Source: an uncultured SAR116 cluster alpha proteobacterium
Lineage (GTDB): Bacteria; Pseudomonadota; Alphaproteobacteria; Puniceispirillales; Marisalimonadaceae
Direction of reading: 5' to 3'
Length of the DNA: 57,741 nucleotides
Assembly (NCBI GenBank): GCA_902595515.1
Contig: CACJQK010000009.1
Coordinates: forward strand, 1 to 57,741
Within the stretch, counting starts at the first letter, position 1. The number at the start of each line of letters is the position of its first letter. Below are positions 26,264-33,019 of this stretch, in pieces. Below the pieces are notes generated by a model. It did no database searches. It saw only the letters and a program-made list of their open reading frames with translations, and was not told where the DNA came from. The position numbers and the translations under genes were made by a program.

Positions 26264-27613
26264 ATGTTAAAGGTTGTTTTAATTGGGAGACCTAACGTTG
26301 GTAAATCTACTTTATTTAATCGTTTAGTTCGTTCACAAAAGGCAATAGTCAATGATGAACCTGGTGTTACTAGAGACAGAAAATATGGTCAGGCAAATTT
26401 AGTTGATTTAAGTTTTATTATAGTTGATACAGCTGGTATGGATGACTCCTTAAAAGGAACAACACAAAATGATATCAGACAACAGAGTAAATTTGCAATT
26501 GAAGAAGCAAACATTATATTTTTCGTCATTGACGGTCGAGTAGGAGTTTTACCAGTTGAGAAAATATTTGCTAATAATTTAAAAAAACAAAACAAACCAG
26601 TCGCTATTTTGATAAACAAAAGTGAAGGCTCAAAAGGTTTTCTTGGATTAAGTGAGGCAACCTCTTTAGGCTTTGAAAATGTTATTCCAATTTCTGCGGA
26701 ACAAGGAGAAGGATTAAGTGATATATATGATTTTTTAAAGGAAAATTTTAAAGCAGAAAATTCAAAAATATTTCAAAATAAAGTGTCCAATTATCATAAT
26801 AAATCTCCGATTAGAATTAGTGTTACAGGAAGGCCTAATACGGGTAAATCAACTTTAATAAATAATATAATAGGAGAAAATAGGTTAGTTACTGGAACAG
26901 ATGCTGGAATAACTAGAGACTCTATAGAAATTAATTGGAATTATGAAAATCATGATTTTTGTTTAATTGACACAGCTGGCCTCAGAAGGAAATCAAAAAT
27001 AACTAAAAATTTAGAAAAAGATATGATTAGTGATACATTGAGGTCTATAAAATTTAGTCAAATTTGCATTTTATTAGTTGATGCTTCCAAAAACATAGAT
27101 AAACAAGATTTAACTATTGCAAGAATGATAATAGGAGAAGGTAGAGGTATTATTATAGGTGCAAACAAATGGGACAAAGTAAATGACCAAAACATTTTTA
27201 GAGATAATATTATAAATAAATTATCCACATCCTTATCACAAATCAAAGAAATACCAATAGTGTTCATGTCAGGTCTTCATAAAAAAGGAATTGATAAATT
27301 ATTTGAAAAAATTTTTTATATAAATGAAAAGATTAATACTAGAATTACTACTGGAAAATTAAATAAATGGTTATCAACTATAATAGAAAATAACCCACCA
27401 CCGTTGTATAAAGGAAAAAAAAATAATATTAGATATATAACACAATTTAATATTAAACCTCCAACATTTGCTTTATTTATGTCTAGTCCAGATCATCTAC
27501 CAAATAGTTATAAGCGTTTTTTATTGGGATCAATTGTTAAAACTTTTAATTTATTTGGAGTTCCGATTAGAATTATGTTTAGAAAGGGAAATAATCCCTA
27601 TGTAAAAAAGTAA
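26264..27613 (+). CDS. der: GTPase Der (EngA)
   Basis: Ribosome assembly GTPase for the 50S subunit, 449 residues. Two consecutive G domains are visible: the first with GRPNVGKSTLFNRLV and DTAGMDD, the second (from about residue 185) with GRPNTGKSTLINNIIG, DTAGLRRKS and GANKWDKV. They are followed by the C-terminal KH-like domain (PPPLYKGKKNNIRYITQ). TAAGGTTAAAG precedes the ATG. It converges with the stator operon, with 5 bases between stops. Confidence 0.96.
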   Translation: MLKVVLIGRPNVGKSTLFNRLVRSQKAIVNDEPGVTRDRKYGQANLVDLSFIIVDTAGMDDSLKGTTQNDIRQQSKFAIEEANIIFFVIDGRVGVLPVEKIFANNLKKQNKPVAILINKSEGSKGFLGLSEATSLGFENVIPISAEQGEGLSDIYDFLKENFKAENSKIFQNKVSNYHNKSPIRISVTGRPNTGKSTLINNIIGENRLVTGTDAGITRDSIEINWNYENHDFCLIDTAGLRRKSKITKNLEKDMISDTLRSIKFSQICILLVDASKNIDKQDLTIARMIIGEGRGIIIGANKWDKVNDQNIFRDNIINKLSTSLSQIKEIPIVFMSGLHKKGIDKLFEKIFYINEKINTRITTGKLNKWLSTIIENNPPPLYKGKKNNIRYITQFNIKPPTFALFMSSPDHLPNSYKRFLLGSIVKTFNLFGVPIRIMFRKGNNPYVKK

Positions 27614-27618
27614 ATTAA

Positions 27619-28428
27619 TTAAGATACATTTGTAGAAATATTTAATTCATTCGCTGTTTTTAGCTCATTACTTTCTATAATCTTATTTTCGATTTTATCT
27701 ATGCTCTGATTTTGTTCTTCTAAAGCTTCATTTTTGATTCTTAACTCTTGTTCTTTAGAAATTTTATCCTTTTCTAATTTTATTCTTTTGTTAATAACTT
27801 TTATTATATCTGCATCATCTCTTTCAATGGTTTTAAAAAAAGAACCAAGAATTGATTTTCTTTTGATTACACCAACAATTTTCATTTCCTTAGTAATTCT
27901 CTCTAGTGCGTTATCGATTTTTTTTAGAGCAACACCTGATATACGCTGGTCTATATATTCTTTTTCCATAGCAGCTCTTATTCTCAAACCAGTATTTGTT
28001 TTAATTTTCATCAGTCTAGTACAAGCTGTGTTAGTTCTTCTAATAACTTCATCACCTAGTTCTTCTAACTGCATTCTAGATGGTTTCGGTACTCGAATAT
28101 GGATGAATTGTGATCCAGGTTCATTTTTAGCTGGAAAGCCATTGTTCTTTATAAAATTTAACACTTCTTCTATTTGTTCTTTATTATAAATCATCAATTC
28201 AATTTTCATTGGATCGTCAGGTGACTCAACATTTCCCAATTCTGCAAGTCTTCTCGGACGACCTTTGAGTGTCAACTTAAGCCCTCTGAAAACTGCAATA
28301 TTAGCATCCTCTGGCTTTATTTCAGTTAAAGAAACAGCAAAATCTTCAAGTGCATTCTCCATGTTAGCTATTGCTTCTGGAGAATATCCTTCATCAAGAT
28401 TAGCTGAAATATAATTTCCTTCATCCAT
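27619..28428 (-). CDS. ribosome-recycling-factor-like protein in the stator operon
   Basis: A 269-residue protein whose residues ~18-185 align by eye along the whole length of ribosome recycling factor. The N-terminal helix is MENALEDFAVSLTEI, with VFRGLKLTLKGRPRRLAELG next (compare E. coli IVVEYYGTPTPLRQLASV), then the KIELMIYNKEQIEEVLNFIK strand-helix. The hinge IHIRVPKPSRMQLEEL corresponds to DIRVPLPPLTEERRKDL, and a long Arg-rich helix follows. A further ~85 residues, highly charged and probably coiled, form a C-terminal extension that RRF lacks. It is the third gene of the pomA-pomB operon, 36 bases after pomB, with AGGATATGAA before its ATG. A true frr would normally lie with tsf-pyrH elsewhere. 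The function is unknown. The fold assignment is inference from motif alignment. Confidence 0.65.
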   Translation of the reverse strand: MDEGNYISANLDEGYSPEAIANMENALEDFAVSLTEIKPEDANIAVFRGLKLTLKGRPRRLAELGNVESPDDPMKIELMIYNKEQIEEVLNFIKNNGFPAKNEPGSQFIHIRVPKPSRMQLEELGDEVIRRTNTACTRLMKIKTNTGLRIRAAMEKEYIDQRISGVALKKIDNALERITKEMKIVGVIKRKSILGSFFKTIERDDADIIKVINKRIKLEKDKISKEQELRIKNEALEEQNQSIDKIENKIIESNELKTANELNISTNVS

Positions 28429-28464
28429 ATTTCATATCCTACCTGAATTATATAAAAGTTAAAG

Positions 28465-29646
28465 TTAGTACTTTATCTCAATTTCTATTCTTCGGTTTTT
28501 TTCTCTTCCTTGTTTTGTGTCATTTTGCTCTATTGGTTTAGTTTCGCCAAAACTAATCGCTCTAAGTTTATCTGAGGGAATTGTACCAGATTTTGATAAT
28601 TCTTGGACAACACTAGATGCTCTAGCTGCAGCTAGATCCCAATTATCTCTATATTGACCACCGAAAATTAATGGGACGTCATCAGTATGACCAGATACAT
28701 TAATTTGACCAGCACCCTTACCACTTACCTTAGCAATTTTTTGCATTATTGCTCTAGCTTGCTTTGTTAGTTTTGCAGATCCAGAACTAAATGCACCAGC
28801 AGAACCAACAGTTACTACAACTCTATCTTTTTCTCGTTGAACTTCTGCTAAGCCTTTTCCAATTTCTTGCTTTAATGCTACTCTTAATTGATCTTCACTA
28901 AACTCTGCCTTTTTAGTTTTTTCTTGAATTTCCTTTTTACTATTAGAGCTCTGTTTTTCAAGATTATTCATCTGATCTTTTAAAACTTTGTTTTCGATTG
29001 TTGCTGATGCCATTTTCTGAATATCTTGATTTATCCCACCAATAAGTACATCTGTTTCAGTAGCACCCGTATTTTCGCGAGCTTTCTCAACGGCATCAAC
29101 AGTATCTTTTATCAATTTTGAAATTTCTTTTGACGTTTTTTCTTTTGTATTGACACTTACTAAAACTTTATCATTTATAGTTTCAACTTTCACATTTTCA
29201 GAAGATAAATTGTTCTTTATTTCTTCACTTAAATTTTTTGCCTCTAAAACCTCTTTAGAATTACTTTTAGCACTATCTCCTTCGTCAATTTCAGATTTCA
29301 AGTCTAAATTTTTTTGCTCTGCGTCTGTAGTTTGCTGGGTTAGATTTTTAGTAACTGATGGTGCAGGAGACGGACTAAAATCTAAGGATAATACAGTTGT
29401 ACCTTTAGGTTGTTCTACAACTGGAACTATTCTTTGAATTCCAAAGGCGTTCTTTAAGCTACCACTAATCTGTTTAAATTTTGGAACATTAAACTCTGCA
29501 AAAGATAAGATTAATACAAAGAAAGCCATTAATAAGGTAGCCATATCAGCAAATGTAGCCATCCATGCAGGAGCACCTTTGGGTGGGCATTTAGGACATT
29601 CTTCTTCTTCTTCTTCGTCTCTTCCTTCTATTTGTGCTTCAGCCAT
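28465..29646 (-). CDS. pomB: PomB/MotB-like stator protein with OmpA domain
   Basis: Flagellar-motor stator subunit of 393 residues. An acidic N-terminus with CPKC (Cys17, Cys20) leads into APAWMATFADMATLLMAFFV, where Asp34 is the expected ion-binding residue of the channel helix. A long linker (about 60-260), mostly hydrophilic and coiled, precedes the OmpA-like peptidoglycan-binding domain (INVSGHTDDVP, NWDLAAARASSVV, FGETKPI, NRRIEIEI). At 393 residues it is longer than typical PomB (about 315) because of the linker. The ATG at 29646 has GGAG 6 bases upstream; an in-frame TTG at 29658 is less likely. It follows pomA by 26 bases. Confidence 0.9.
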   Translation of the reverse strand: MAEAQIEGRDEEEEEECPKCPPKGAPAWMATFADMATLLMAFFVLILSFAEFNVPKFKQISGSLKNAFGIQRIVPVVEQPKGTTVLSLDFSPSPAPSVTKNLTQQTTDAEQKNLDLKSEIDEGDSAKSNSKEVLEAKNLSEEIKNNLSSENVKVETINDKVLVSVNTKEKTSKEISKLIKDTVDAVEKARENTGATETDVLIGGINQDIQKMASATIENKVLKDQMNNLEKQSSNSKKEIQEKTKKAEFSEDQLRVALKQEIGKGLAEVQREKDRVVVTVGSAGAFSSGSAKLTKQARAIMQKIAKVSGKGAGQINVSGHTDDVPLIFGGQYRDNWDLAAARASSVVQELSKSGTIPSDKLRAISFGETKPIEQNDTKQGREKNRRIEIEIKY

Positions 29647-29672
29647 GATAAACTCCAAATTATTAAAACAAA

Positions 29673-30437
29673 CTAAGCAGCTTCTTCTATTTGAGCTTGT
29701 ATTTTTGGGGGCATGAGAGCTACCAACTGATCAGTTATGTTTCTTGGACTTTCACCTCTAGAAATATATTTAAGTCCCATTACAACCATTTCTCTATAAA
29801 GTAATTCGTGAGCTGAATAACCTTCAAGTTTAGTAACAATAGGCATAAAAATACAGTTCGCTATCATAGCTCCATATAATGTTGTTAACAAAGCAACTGC
29901 CATTGCAGGACCAATTGCTTTTGGATCAGCCATATTACCTAACATAGCAACTAACCCAATTAAAGTTCCAATCATCCCCATTGCAGGTGCTAAATCTACC
30001 CAAGCTTGAAATACACCTGTCATATCCTCATGCCTTGATTTCATAGCTTTAACTTCTTTGTTTAATTGTTCCGTTAATTTAGTTTCATCTGCACCATCAA
30101 CAAGCATCTGAAGTCCTTTTTCAAAAAATTTATCTGGTACTTCTTGACCTTCAAGCGCCATCATTCCGTCTTTTCTAGCAATACCAGCAAGTTCTGTAAT
30201 TCTTGTGATTAACTCGTCATGTTTTTTTGCTCCTGGCATAAAAACTTTTACAAGGGTTCCAAAGGAGGCTAGAAACATTGGTAACGTTGACCTATACATA
30301 ACTGCAAAGAAGGTGCCTCCAATAACAATCAACATAGAAGGTGTATCAATAAATGCTCCAAGTCCACCAGAAGAAATCATTGCTCCAGCTATCATTCCAA
30401 GGGTGCCTATAAGTCCAATCAAAGATGCTATATCCAT
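29673..30437 (-). CDS. pomA: PomA/MotA-like stator channel protein
   Basis: Four-helix stator subunit of 254 residues, the length of Vibrio PomA, which forms the ion channel and presses on the flagellar rotor. Features are the start MDIASLIGLIGTLGMIAGAM, VGG-like IVIGGTFFAVMYRS, a cytoplasmic loop (about 55-145) with charged KAMKSRHEDM, and helices 3-4 with APAMGMIGTLIGLVAMLG and VALLTTLYGAMIANCIF. The similarity is to sodium-type PomA rather than to E. coli MotA, suggesting a Na+ motor, though ion choice is inference. It is the first gene of a stator operon, preceded by a sigma-54-like promoter. No other flagellar gene is in the window. Confidence 0.9.
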   Translation of the reverse strand: MDIASLIGLIGTLGMIAGAMISSGGLGAFIDTPSMLIVIGGTFFAVMYRSTLPMFLASFGTLVKVFMPGAKKHDELITRITELAGIARKDGMMALEGQEVPDKFFEKGLQMLVDGADETKLTEQLNKEVKAMKSRHEDMTGVFQAWVDLAPAMGMIGTLIGLVAMLGNMADPKAIGPAMAVALLTTLYGAMIANCIFMPIVTKLEGYSAHELLYREMVVMGLKYISRGESPRNITDQLVALMPPKIQAQIEEAA

Positions 30438-30470
30438 TTTCTTGCCTTTTTTAGTTTAAAATAATGATAA

Positions 30471-30500
30471 TAGGCATAAATTCTGCAAGAATGAGACCAA
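30471..30500. promoter_or_regulatory. sigma-54-like -24/-12 element(s) between pomA and the DUF1566 gene
   Basis: Minus strand, toward pomA: TTGGTCTCATTCTTGCA (30500-30484) has GG-N10-GC spacing with strong TTGG and TTGCA blocks; initiation would be near 30472, about 35 bases before the pomA ATG. Plus strand, toward the DUF1566 gene: TAGGCATAAATTCTGCA (30471-30487) also has GG-N10-GC but is weaker. Both use the same GC at 30485-30486, so RNA polymerase could occupy only one direction at a time. rpoN lies 1 kb away. Confidence 0.5.
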
Positions 30501-30538
30501 AATGAAAATAATCATAAAAAAACTTATCGGAGTTTGTT

Positions 30539-31033
30539 ATGTCAAAATTAAATTCATCATTCCCTAAAATTTATACTATTATTATAATATTACTATTCTT
30601 GTTTAATTTCAATAACGTGTGGGCTACTAATTTTATATCTAGGGGATACTATGTTATAGATTTAAGTCAAAAATTAGAATGGATGACTTGTACAGTTGGT
30701 ATGAAATGGGATCAAAATAAATGCATAGGTAAACCAATAAAGGTAAAGTTGGACCAAATAGATTCTATTATTAGTCAAGCTAATGATCAACTTGAAGGAA
30801 ATTGGCGTTTGCCAAACAGAAAAGAATTAGAAAGTCTGGTATGTAAAGATTGTAAAACTGTTAAAATAAATTTAAAAATATTCCCTAATACACCAGCTGA
30901 ATCCTTTTGGACTAGTGAAAAAAATCCTTGGCAATCTCAATTTATGTGGACTGTTAATTTTTTTACAGGTCACACGTTTGGTAGATTTCCAGGTTTTATA
31001 CCTAATCATGTGAGATTGGTAAGAGACAGATAA
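30539..31033 (+). CDS. exported DUF1566 (Lcl C-terminal-like) domain protein
   Basis: A 164-residue protein with a signal peptide (hydrophobic IYTIIIILLFLFNFNNVWA, cleavage after VWA). The DUF1566 domain typical of surface or periplasmic proteins follows: a Trp-rich start (LEWMTCTVGMKWDQNKCIGK), WRLPNRKELESLVCKDC, FPNTPAESFWTSEK, then a final HVRLVRDR. Four Cys residues could form two disulfides. In other bacteria this fold occurs in adhesin-like and lectin-like proteins; no substrate is implied here. It diverges from the stator operon. GGAG lies before the ATG. Confidence 0.8.
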   Translation: MSKLNSSFPKIYTIIIILLFLFNFNNVWATNFISRGYYVIDLSQKLEWMTCTVGMKWDQNKCIGKPIKVKLDQIDSIISQANDQLEGNWRLPNRKELESLVCKDCKTVKINLKIFPNTPAESFWTSEKNPWQSQFMWTVNFFTGHTFGRFPGFIPNHVRLVRDR

Positions 31034-31036
31034 TAT

Positions 31037-31072
31037 TTAGCTAATTTTTTTTTTAAAAAAATAATTAGCTAA
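31037..31072. terminator. bidirectional hairpin terminator
   Basis: The 10-base arms TTAGCTAATT (31037-31046) and AATTAGCTAA (31063-31072) flank a T-run then A-run. The hairpin therefore has a U-rich tract for transcripts from either strand. It ends the DUF1566 gene and overlaps the stop codon of the convergent small membrane protein. Confidence 0.6.
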
Positions 31073-31288
31073 TTTTATCAAAAACATTATTACTCCTAGG
31101 ATAATTATTAAAGTTGCTGCGTTAGTTGGAGTAATAAAATCTAAATAATGTAAATTGTCACTTTGTATGAGTGCAAATAATATTATAAACACAACAGCTA
31201 ACAAAAAAAATCTAATAATGTAACAATTTCTACACCTGTAAGGTTTTTCTATTTTTTTATTAGATAATGTTTTATTTTTATTTACCAT
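31037..31288 (-). CDS. hypothetical small membrane protein with CxxC
   Basis: An 83-residue protein with a basic N-terminus containing YRCRNCYIIR, then two hydrophobic segments (about 28-45 and 56-76) and a Lys-rich end. The CxxC could bind metal or form a disulfide. No family was recognised. It lies between the DUF1566 gene and rpoN, with 246 AT-rich bases separating it from the divergent rpoN in which I see no further gene. Confidence 0.5.
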   Translation of the reverse strand: MVNKNKTLSNKKIEKPYRCRNCYIIRFFLLAVVFIILFALIQSDNLHYLDFITPTNAATLIIILGVIMFLIKLANYFFKKKIS

Positions 31289-31534
31289 AAAGAAATACCA
31301 ATTTTTTGAGCCAAATATTTGACTTTCTATTTTAAATAAAAAAAAATTTTTTTAAAACATTAAAAAATGAAACAGGTTAACATATTGTTTTATTTGAGAT
31401 TTTTACTTTAAAATGGTTATCTTAAAGTCATTTTTTTGTTATTTTTTTTTGTCAAATTAAGATTTTGATTTTGTTAAGATTAATTGATTTTATTTGTTTC
31501 ATTATTTCGAGTTAATCAAGAAACGGAGATTTAA

Positions 31535-33019
31535 ATGAAATTGGGTCAACAGTTAAAAATTAAACAAAATCAGTCATTGATTATGACACCTCAGTTACAA
31601 CAAGCGATAAAATTATTGCAATTAACTAATATTGAATTAGCAGAATTCATAGATAAAGCAAAAGTAGAAAATCCTTTTTTGAAAGAAAATGACCAAACAA
31701 TAATTAAGAAAGTTGTAGAAGAACAAAATTTAGATACACACAATAATATGAATAGTTTACTAGATCCACTAAAGAAAGAAAGTAAACTTGAATTGGAAAA
31801 TATTTTTGATTCACACATTTCTTCGAGTTCAAAAATAGAAAATAAAAAACTGTATGAAAAAGAAATTATTAGATCGGGAAAAGATAAATCTGCGGGGGAG
31901 GTTATTGAGAAAACACTTAAGCATCAAGTATCTCTGAGAGAACATATTATTAATCAAATAAACATAAACTTTAAAGATACTGACAATAAAAGTGTTGCTA
32001 TTGGGATGATAGATTATCTTCATCCAAGTGGATGGTTTGTTTTTTCAGAATGTGAAGTTGCAAATGATTTGAATGTCGATATTTCTGTAGTTAAAAAAAC
32101 ACTTTTGATGCTAAAAAATCTTGAGCCAATTGGAATATTTTCTCAAAATTTGGAAGAGTGCTTAAAGCTTCAGTTAATTGAAAATAAAAAATATAATCGG
32201 CAATTTGAAATTCTTCTTAAAAATTTATATATGCTACCGTTAGGAAAGTTTAAACAGGTTAGTAAACTTTGCAAAGTTTCAGAAGAAAAATTATTTCAAA
32301 TGATTAGGTCATTAAAGACACTTAATCCGAAACCAGCTGAACAGTTTAATCAAGAAAGTATATATATAGATCAGCCTGATGTGATTGTTACAAAATCTGC
32401 AAAAGGATGGCGTATTGATTTAAATGGATCAACTTTACCAACCATTAATTTAGATGAAAGTTACATTCAAGAAATTGATAATTATAAACTCGATGAAAAA
32501 GGGAATAATTTTGCTTTAGAAAAAATTGGAGAAGCGCGTTGGTTAAAAAAAGCAGTCGAACAAAGAAATAAAACCATCTTAAAAGTTACATCTGAGATTG
32601 TAAAAAAGCAACTTGGATTCTTTAGGCACGGTTTAAGTCATATGAAGCCTATGATACTTAAAGATATTTCAGATGCTATTGGGATGCATGAAAGCACAGT
32701 TTCTAGGGTTACAAATAGTAAACTTATTTTGACGGAATGGGGTGTCATGCCATTGAAAAACTTTTTCTCTGCATCAATTTCAGGTTCAGAAAATTCAGAA
32801 TTACATGCAGCTTCTGCGGTTAGAGAAGCTATAAAAACTTTAATTACGTCTGAAATTGCAGGCAAGCCATTAAGTGACGATAAATTAGCTGGAATTTTGA
32901 ATAAAGAAGGTATGGATATTGCCAGAAGAACAGTAGCAAAATATAGAGATATGTTAAATATACCATCTAGTTCACAAAGAAGAAAACAATCCAGATTATT
33001 AAAGTATGCATCAAATTAA
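31535..33019 (+). CDS. rpoN: RNA polymerase sigma-54 factor
   Basis: A 494-residue sigma factor for -24/-12 promoters that depends on AAA+ activators. Region I is Gln/Leu-rich (QSLIMTPQLQQAIKLLQLTN), a core-binding domain occupies the middle (about 110-300), and the C-terminal part has the HTH near ISDAIGMHESTVSRVTNSK. The RpoN box, which reads the -24 element, is intact as ARRTVAKYRD. CGGAG precedes the ATG by 8 bases. Sigma-54 in such an AT-rich genome usually serves nitrogen control or motility; here the neighbours are stator and bactofilin genes. Confidence 0.95.
   Translation: MKLGQQLKIKQNQSLIMTPQLQQAIKLLQLTNIELAEFIDKAKVENPFLKENDQTIIKKVVEEQNLDTHNNMNSLLDPLKKESKLELENIFDSHISSSSKIENKKLYEKEIIRSGKDKSAGEVIEKTLKHQVSLREHIINQININFKDTDNKSVAIGMIDYLHPSGWFVFSECEVANDLNVDISVVKKTLLMLKNLEPIGIFSQNLEECLKLQLIENKKYNRQFEILLKNLYMLPLGKFKQVSKLCKVSEEKLFQMIRSLKTLNPKPAEQFNQESIYIDQPDVIVTKSAKGWRIDLNGSTLPTINLDESYIQEIDNYKLDEKGNNFALEKIGEARWLKKAVEQRNKTILKVTSEIVKKQLGFFRHGLSHMKPMILKDISDAIGMHESTVSRVTNSKLILTEWGVMPLKNFFSASISGSENSELHAASAVREAIKTLITSEIAGKPLSDDKLAGILNKEGMDIARRTVAKYRDMLNIPSSSQRRKQSRLLKYASN

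Follow-up and report, generated by a model that had tools for sequence, protein, structure and literature searches.

Why would a gene resembling that of the ribosome recycling factor (RRF) lie behind the genes of a flagellar stator? The question is raised by a stretch of 57,741 nucleotides (here called the window) from an uncultured SAR116 cluster alphaproteobacterium, contig CACJQK010000009.1, whose assembly measures 1.87 Mb in 81 contigs and is 80% complete. In our labels, G stands for genome, L for locus, f for family and g for genus, G000 being the window's own genome. SAR116 is equated with the order Puniceispirillales in an excerpt of PMC12262181, and the order sampled here is presumably that one. 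A preliminary description of the window reported an RRF-like protein encoded third behind pomA and pomB, and this arrangement was confirmed, with an open reading frame at 27619-28428 on the minus strand, the same strand as both stator genes, encoding 269 amino acids (aa). We named the family of paralogues to which it belongs RRFL, and we propose, with a probability of roughly 0.5, that RRFL is an old, fast-diverged paralogue of RRF that would act off the ribosome and serve the flagellum.

The window RRFL matched the Pfam RRF family (PF01765, profile positions 4-163/164) over residues 33-193 (27850-28332, minus strand), with 30.1 bits against a cut-off of 29.7 (E 5e-7), and the same protein scored 31.8 bits in a Pfam search of the whole genome. 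Given that this score is thin for a single protein, we built a family profile (alignment A1) from 19 RRFL relatives. Run against all PDB sequences, the profile returned 20 matches at E ≤0.051, all of them RRFs, the best being Thermus RRF 1eh1 (E 9.4e-10), while three further matches had E values of at least 0.4. A profile-profile comparison with 16 canonical RRFs gave a probability of 94.9% over 164 columns (E 4e-8), which bears out the homology first proposed; with only 15 near orthologs of the window RRFL, the probability was 82.8%. Moreover, 11 of the 19 family members matched Pfam RRF at E ≤0.01. The NCBIfam frr equivalog TIGR00496 (cut-off 149 bits) gave no match to the window RRFL up to E 1, and scored 16.8 and 17.4 bits, under the cut-off, against two relatives. 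Judged from these comparisons, RRFL is homologous to RRF along its length, although the homologous stretch corresponds to about aa 17-193 rather than to the first ~185 residues as initially stated. The AlphaFold models of the window RRFL, made from 15 near-identical sequences, were poor (mean predicted local distance difference test scores of 44.6 and 43.5) because their alignment input comprised close orthologs only; the order of helices and strands in them fits what we take to be that of RRF, and a Foldseek search with such a model placed RRFs at ranks 1-23 (rank 7 by title), with template modelling scores of at most 0.30, a hint only.

The C-terminal extension (aa 194-269, 27622-27849, minus strand), delimited by alignment of relatives, opens with a short motif, GSFFxxxERDD, conserved in near relatives, and continues as a variable charged tail; the ~85 residues given for the tail in the preliminary description are about 76, with a net charge of -2. 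A helix in the extension appears in a low-confidence AlphaFold model only. The flagellar collar protein FlbB of NCBIfam was dismissed as a candidate identity for the window RRFL (19.4 bits against a cut-off of 110, aa 184-253); the match covers mostly the charged tail.

Could RRFL nevertheless be the ordinary frr of its genome, or owe its likeness to chance? We consider this explanation highly improbable. A Pfam score barely over the cut-off and an identity of 13% to the genome's own frr (24/184 columns) would agree with chance, but the significance is family-wide, both in the PDB profile search and in the 11/19 Pfam matches. An ordinary frr is ruled out by a canonical copy scoring 196.9 bits on a different contig (G000:C41:3772-4263), as the preliminary description had left to be checked, so the gene is not the genome's only frr. 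The canonical copy sits between pyrH and uppS, both named by eye, and it is this copy, not RRFL, that occupies the pyrH-frr-uppS context. Across the order, canonical frr was detected in 55/76 genomes with RRFL and in 46/60 without it, many of the assemblies being incomplete, and thus RRFL does not replace frr. It was also present in all 7 genomes of the class that carry RRFL outside the order, and 19 of the 26 canonical frr proteins that we aligned come from genomes also carrying RRFL. RRF is described as an essential translation factor whose loss is lethal in Escherichia coli (excerpt of PMC9067457).

We then compared 38 non-redundant RRFLs with the 26 canonical RRFs, residue by residue. Of 46 columns conserved in at least 90% of canonical RRFs, the majority residue was common to RRFL in 8. 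Of the nine arginines R28, R31, R63, R99, R109, R110, R129, R132 and R133 (E. coli numbering), each conserved in at least 25/26 canonical RRFs, none is the majority residue in RRFL: R31 is mostly replaced by Asp and R110 by Leu, as K115 is by Asp, and the positions of R109, R110 and R129 are mostly non-basic. Structures of the RRF mutants R31A, R109A and R132G have been solved, and their titles mark these residues, each of which probably contacts rRNA, as ones that other groups chose to alter. The preliminary description had offered three options, namely regulation of stator assembly, coupling of motility to translation, or a repurposed fold, and the loss of RRF's conserved arginines from RRFL makes the last of these the best fit.

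The same comparison bears on the alternative that RRFL still acts on the ribosome, as a factor specialised in recycling, hibernation or reinitiation, through which an altered translation of stator or flagellar mRNAs would couple motility to translation. The homology spans both domains of RRF, which is tRNA-shaped, with domain I binding the large subunit and domain II working with elongation factor G (excerpt of PMC9067457). The hinge is kept, as the preliminary description had it, with the proline P114 (E. coli P103) present in 34/38 RRFLs. Position 132, invariably Arg in canonical RRFs (26/26), remains basic in RRFL (Lys in 36 and Arg in 1 of 38; K143 in the window, 28000-28002, minus strand), and residues 33-193 of the window RRFL carry a net charge of +9. 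These features would suit a ribosome-binding protein, but the nine arginines are not the majority residue in RRFL, and several of their sites are acidic or hydrophobic, so that we regard a ribosomal role as unlikely.

The tie to the flagellum emerges from gene order. Coordinates put PomB immediately upstream of RRFL, on one contig, in all 41 genomes of family f1 with RRFL; among the loci that we inspected in this family (L003-L032), PomB precedes RRFL in 30/30 and der follows it in 28/30, while the second RRFL of G022 stands at a contig end (L099). In 8 of 13 RRFL loci examined, the order is flhB - small80 - cc241 - pdz253 - RRFL - pomB - pomA, where small80 is a small membrane gene, cc241 a coiled-coil membrane gene and pdz253 a PDZ-like gene. 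These 8 loci belong to the f1 genera g2 and g4 (L066, L098, L127, L128), to genus g11 of f3 (L134, L135) and to f11 (L086, L087), with the exceptions that small80 was undetected in L066, that L098 ends inside pomB, and that the RRFL of f11 shares the strand of flhB and is separated from pomB by an extra gene. The other 5 loci, from genera g1 and g3, read pomA-pomB-RRFL-der. We also inspected 16 pomAB regions, 11 from genomes with RRFL elsewhere and 5 from genomes where none was found: the flhB block, or its visible part, still faces pomAB in 12 of them, and in none of the 16 does RRFL occupy the slot between the two. L148 has its RRFL 11.6 kb away from pomA. The window's genome carries the flhB block on a different contig (C3) from RRFL-pomAB, and RRFL therefore remained with pomAB when the cluster split.

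The extra gene of f11 encodes 278-307 aa (L086:6638-7474, L087:6627-7550), and its L086 copy has no Pfam match up to E 0.1. Behind flhB lie unnamed conserved genes (G000:C3:23577-26696, that is, L193:5078-8197) for a small membrane protein, a coiled-coil membrane protein and a weakly PDZ-like protein, seen also in L086, L098, L127, L128, L134, L135, L137, L142 and others; this set is kept in the window's order, f11 and f20.

In the window, pomA (29673-30437; PF01618), pomB (28465-29658; MotB plug and OmpA, PF13677 and PF00691) and RRFL follow one another on the minus strand, with gaps of 14 bases between pomA and pomB and 36 bases between pomB and RRFL. The best NCBIfam match of PomA is PRK08990 PomA (278.5 bits, under the cut-off of 341); the called start of pomB is TTG, an in-frame ATG at 29646 being a possible alternative. 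Since no terminator-like site was found in 27400-30800 (1.6 expected by shuffling) and a Shine-Dalgarno-like AGGTAGGA (28437-28444, minus strand), read from the sequence, lies 8 nucleotides 5′ of the RRFL start codon, pomA-pomB-RRFL likely form a single operon. Upstream of pomA, a pattern search found a sigma-54-type site, TGGTCTCATTCTTGCA (30484-30499, minus strand), from which pomA-pomB-RRFL is probably transcribed. We loosened the pattern once the window copy had been seen, the strict form having no match upstream of the window pomA. With the relaxed pattern, a site is found 52-81 bases before pomA in 34/34 regions examined (0.03 expected), although many of these regions are near copies and the gene start used for L065 is not on an ATG. 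Within the window's genus, RRFL itself evolves under purifying selection, with a median ratio of nonsynonymous to synonymous substitution rates of 0.058 over the 7 of 15 ortholog pairs for which it was computable (8 for PomB, 11 for PomA and 5 for Der); 14 loci match the window RRFL protein at 81-87% identity.

Co-occurrence points in the same direction. Among 43 good genomes of the order (at least 90% complete, at most 5% contaminated), RRFL is present in 25/34 flagellated genomes, defined by FlhA or PomB, and in 0/9 that have neither (Fisher 8.6e-5). All 25 good genomes with RRFL thus carry FlhA or PomB, G044 and G045 counting as flagellated only via the PomB next to RRFL. Taken with gene order and the promoter site, this makes the flagellar tie of RRFL well supported, and the adjacency to pomAB extends beyond one species, to 41/41 genomes of f1 as well as to g11 and f11.

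Several observations weigh against a flagellar paralogue of this kind. Of the 35 f3 and f4 genomes that carry RRFL, only 2 have PomB beside it, the neighbours there being varied, and in f20 the neighbours are non-flagellar. A real link to the flagellar stator is supported, beyond what the preliminary description could see, but RRFL is not simply a third stator subunit, because in other lineages it is mostly away from pomAB. A sigma-54-like site is found at only 3/27 RRFL genes outside the pomA operon (0.09 expected by shuffling; 8/277 control ORFs), and two of these three are from one genus. When corrected on a three-gene tree, which covers 40 of the 43 good genomes, the co-occurrence is not significant, with 5 independent pairs, of which ~2.7 agree and 0 disagree (p 0.25): the direction is consistent and the power low. 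Nine good flagellated genomes are without RRFL, which is hence not needed for flagella in general, and in G261 (f11, 92% complete), which carries RRFL, even the best PomB match is not strong (3.3e-11). Finally, 2 of the 25 good RRFL genomes (G015, G086) show no canonical frr, probably owing to assembly gaps.

Such variation is what one would expect if RRFL were a general cytoplasmic adaptor or signalling protein with lineage-specific partners, its linkage to pomAB being one local use. The neighbours indeed change with the lineage, including what we take to be alanine dehydrogenase in g10, malonyl-CoA decarboxylase at a BLUF fusion described below, and others; the branches within the family are very long, and an f11 copy lacks a strong PomB match. 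We find this explanation doubtful, in that one flagellar slot is common to three lineages and RRFL is absent from the 9 good genomes of the order without FlhA and PomB. In genus g10, a 90-aa gene that neither Pfam nor NCBIfam matches at E 0.01 lies directly 3′ of RRFL (L055:5967-6239), and similar genes were seen by eye in L047 and L048.

How widespread and how old is the family? Within the order, single-sequence search found RRFL in 73/136 genomes and the profile in 76/136 (77 raw, the G037 match being canonical frr). The profile matched 11/386 genomes at class level, 4 of the order and 7 from families f11 and f20, and 3/348 at phylum level, one of them the window's own genome. Second profile matches in G033, G050 and G059 were rejected as canonical frr by their coordinates, as were the matches in G558 and G733, outside Alphaproteobacteria, which overlap canonical frr. 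Beyond the window's order, the genomes sampled place RRFL only in f11 and f20 of the Alphaproteobacteria. A tree of the 26 canonical RRFs and 38 RRFLs separates the two groups by a single branch with 100/100 support and a length of about 4.4 changes per column (drawn as 2.2 + 2.2), which calls for a long-branch warning; the branches inside the RRFL family are very long as well. A further diverged RRFL type was seen in f11 (L089:6001-6603, L090:6034-6645, L091:3-596), as a second copy in G349 and G142, and also in G261, there without a strong PomB match.

One genome shows the RRF-like body in another setting. G077, which we took as Candidatus Puniceispirillum marinum IMCC1322, has two RRFLs, one of them fused to BLUF (L054:5566-6813), with both Pfam RRF (32.8 bits) and BLUF (PF04940, 85.4 bits) over their cut-offs; a Pfam scan of the window RRFL detected no BLUF domain. 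Since a BLUF domain usually controls an output, the fusion favours a role of the RRF-like part as an adaptor or regulator, and it suggests that this body may serve as an output module under the control of a signal. The RRFL-BLUF gene adjoins a malonyl-CoA decarboxylase gene.

Returning to RRFL as a paralogue serving the flagellum, the protein would be soluble, cytoplasmic and made together with PomA and PomB. Its two-domain RRF body, a helix bundle with a hinged alpha/beta domain, may work as an adaptor that binds a stator, switch or export protein, and RRFL could thereby tune stator assembly, activation or motor output. A fuller version, which we put forward tentatively, is that the tRNA-shaped RRF fold might have been recruited away from the ribosome into the SAR116 flagellar machine, where it would regulate the motor or its stator under sigma-54 control, with one IMCC1322 copy under BLUF blue-light control. 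If true, an abundant marine group would offer one of the rare examples in which a core translation factor has become a motility protein; the label "ribosome recycling factor" on genes of the RRFL type may mislead on function, and the IMCC1322 fusion suggests that light control of an RRF fold is possible. Among the papers listed in our literature search, judged by titles and abstract openings, none links RRF with stators; no paper in the library searched pairs "BLUF" with "ribosome recycling factor", and "ribosome recycling", "BLUF" and "flagell" are all absent from the main text of three SAR116 papers. What is new is the family, together with its flagellar setting and the BLUF fusion, and not the fold.

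On the 3′ side of RRFL, the convergent gene at 26264-27613 (plus strand, from the list of open reading frames), which from its sequence we take to be that of the GTPase Der (EngA), lies outside the unit. On the other side, a gene with an Lcl_C domain, an 83-aa membrane gene and rpoN, the sigma-54 gene (31535-33019), adjoin pomA (30539-33019); similar genes were seen by eye beside pomA in L136, L137, L140, L142 and L144.

Among known systems, FliL, MotX/MotY and YcgR are accessory or regulatory proteins of the stator, encoded with MotAB/PomAB or acting on them. They resemble RRFL in being tied to MotAB/PomAB, and to our knowledge none of them is RRF-like. BLUF photoreceptors share their domain with one IMCC1322 RRFL, with the difference that its partner domain is RRF-like. 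Mitochondrial and plastid RRFs are matched by the RRFL profile (8.5e-4 and 3.4e-6, respectively), but the best matches are bacterial (9.4e-10). The closest likeness is to bacterial RRF (frr, PF01765), with which RRFL is collinear over ~160-175 residues, including the hinge proline and the start of the C-terminal helix, and from which it differs by its 13% identity, the loss of the arginines, its C-terminal extension, its flagellar context and the presence of a canonical frr alongside it.

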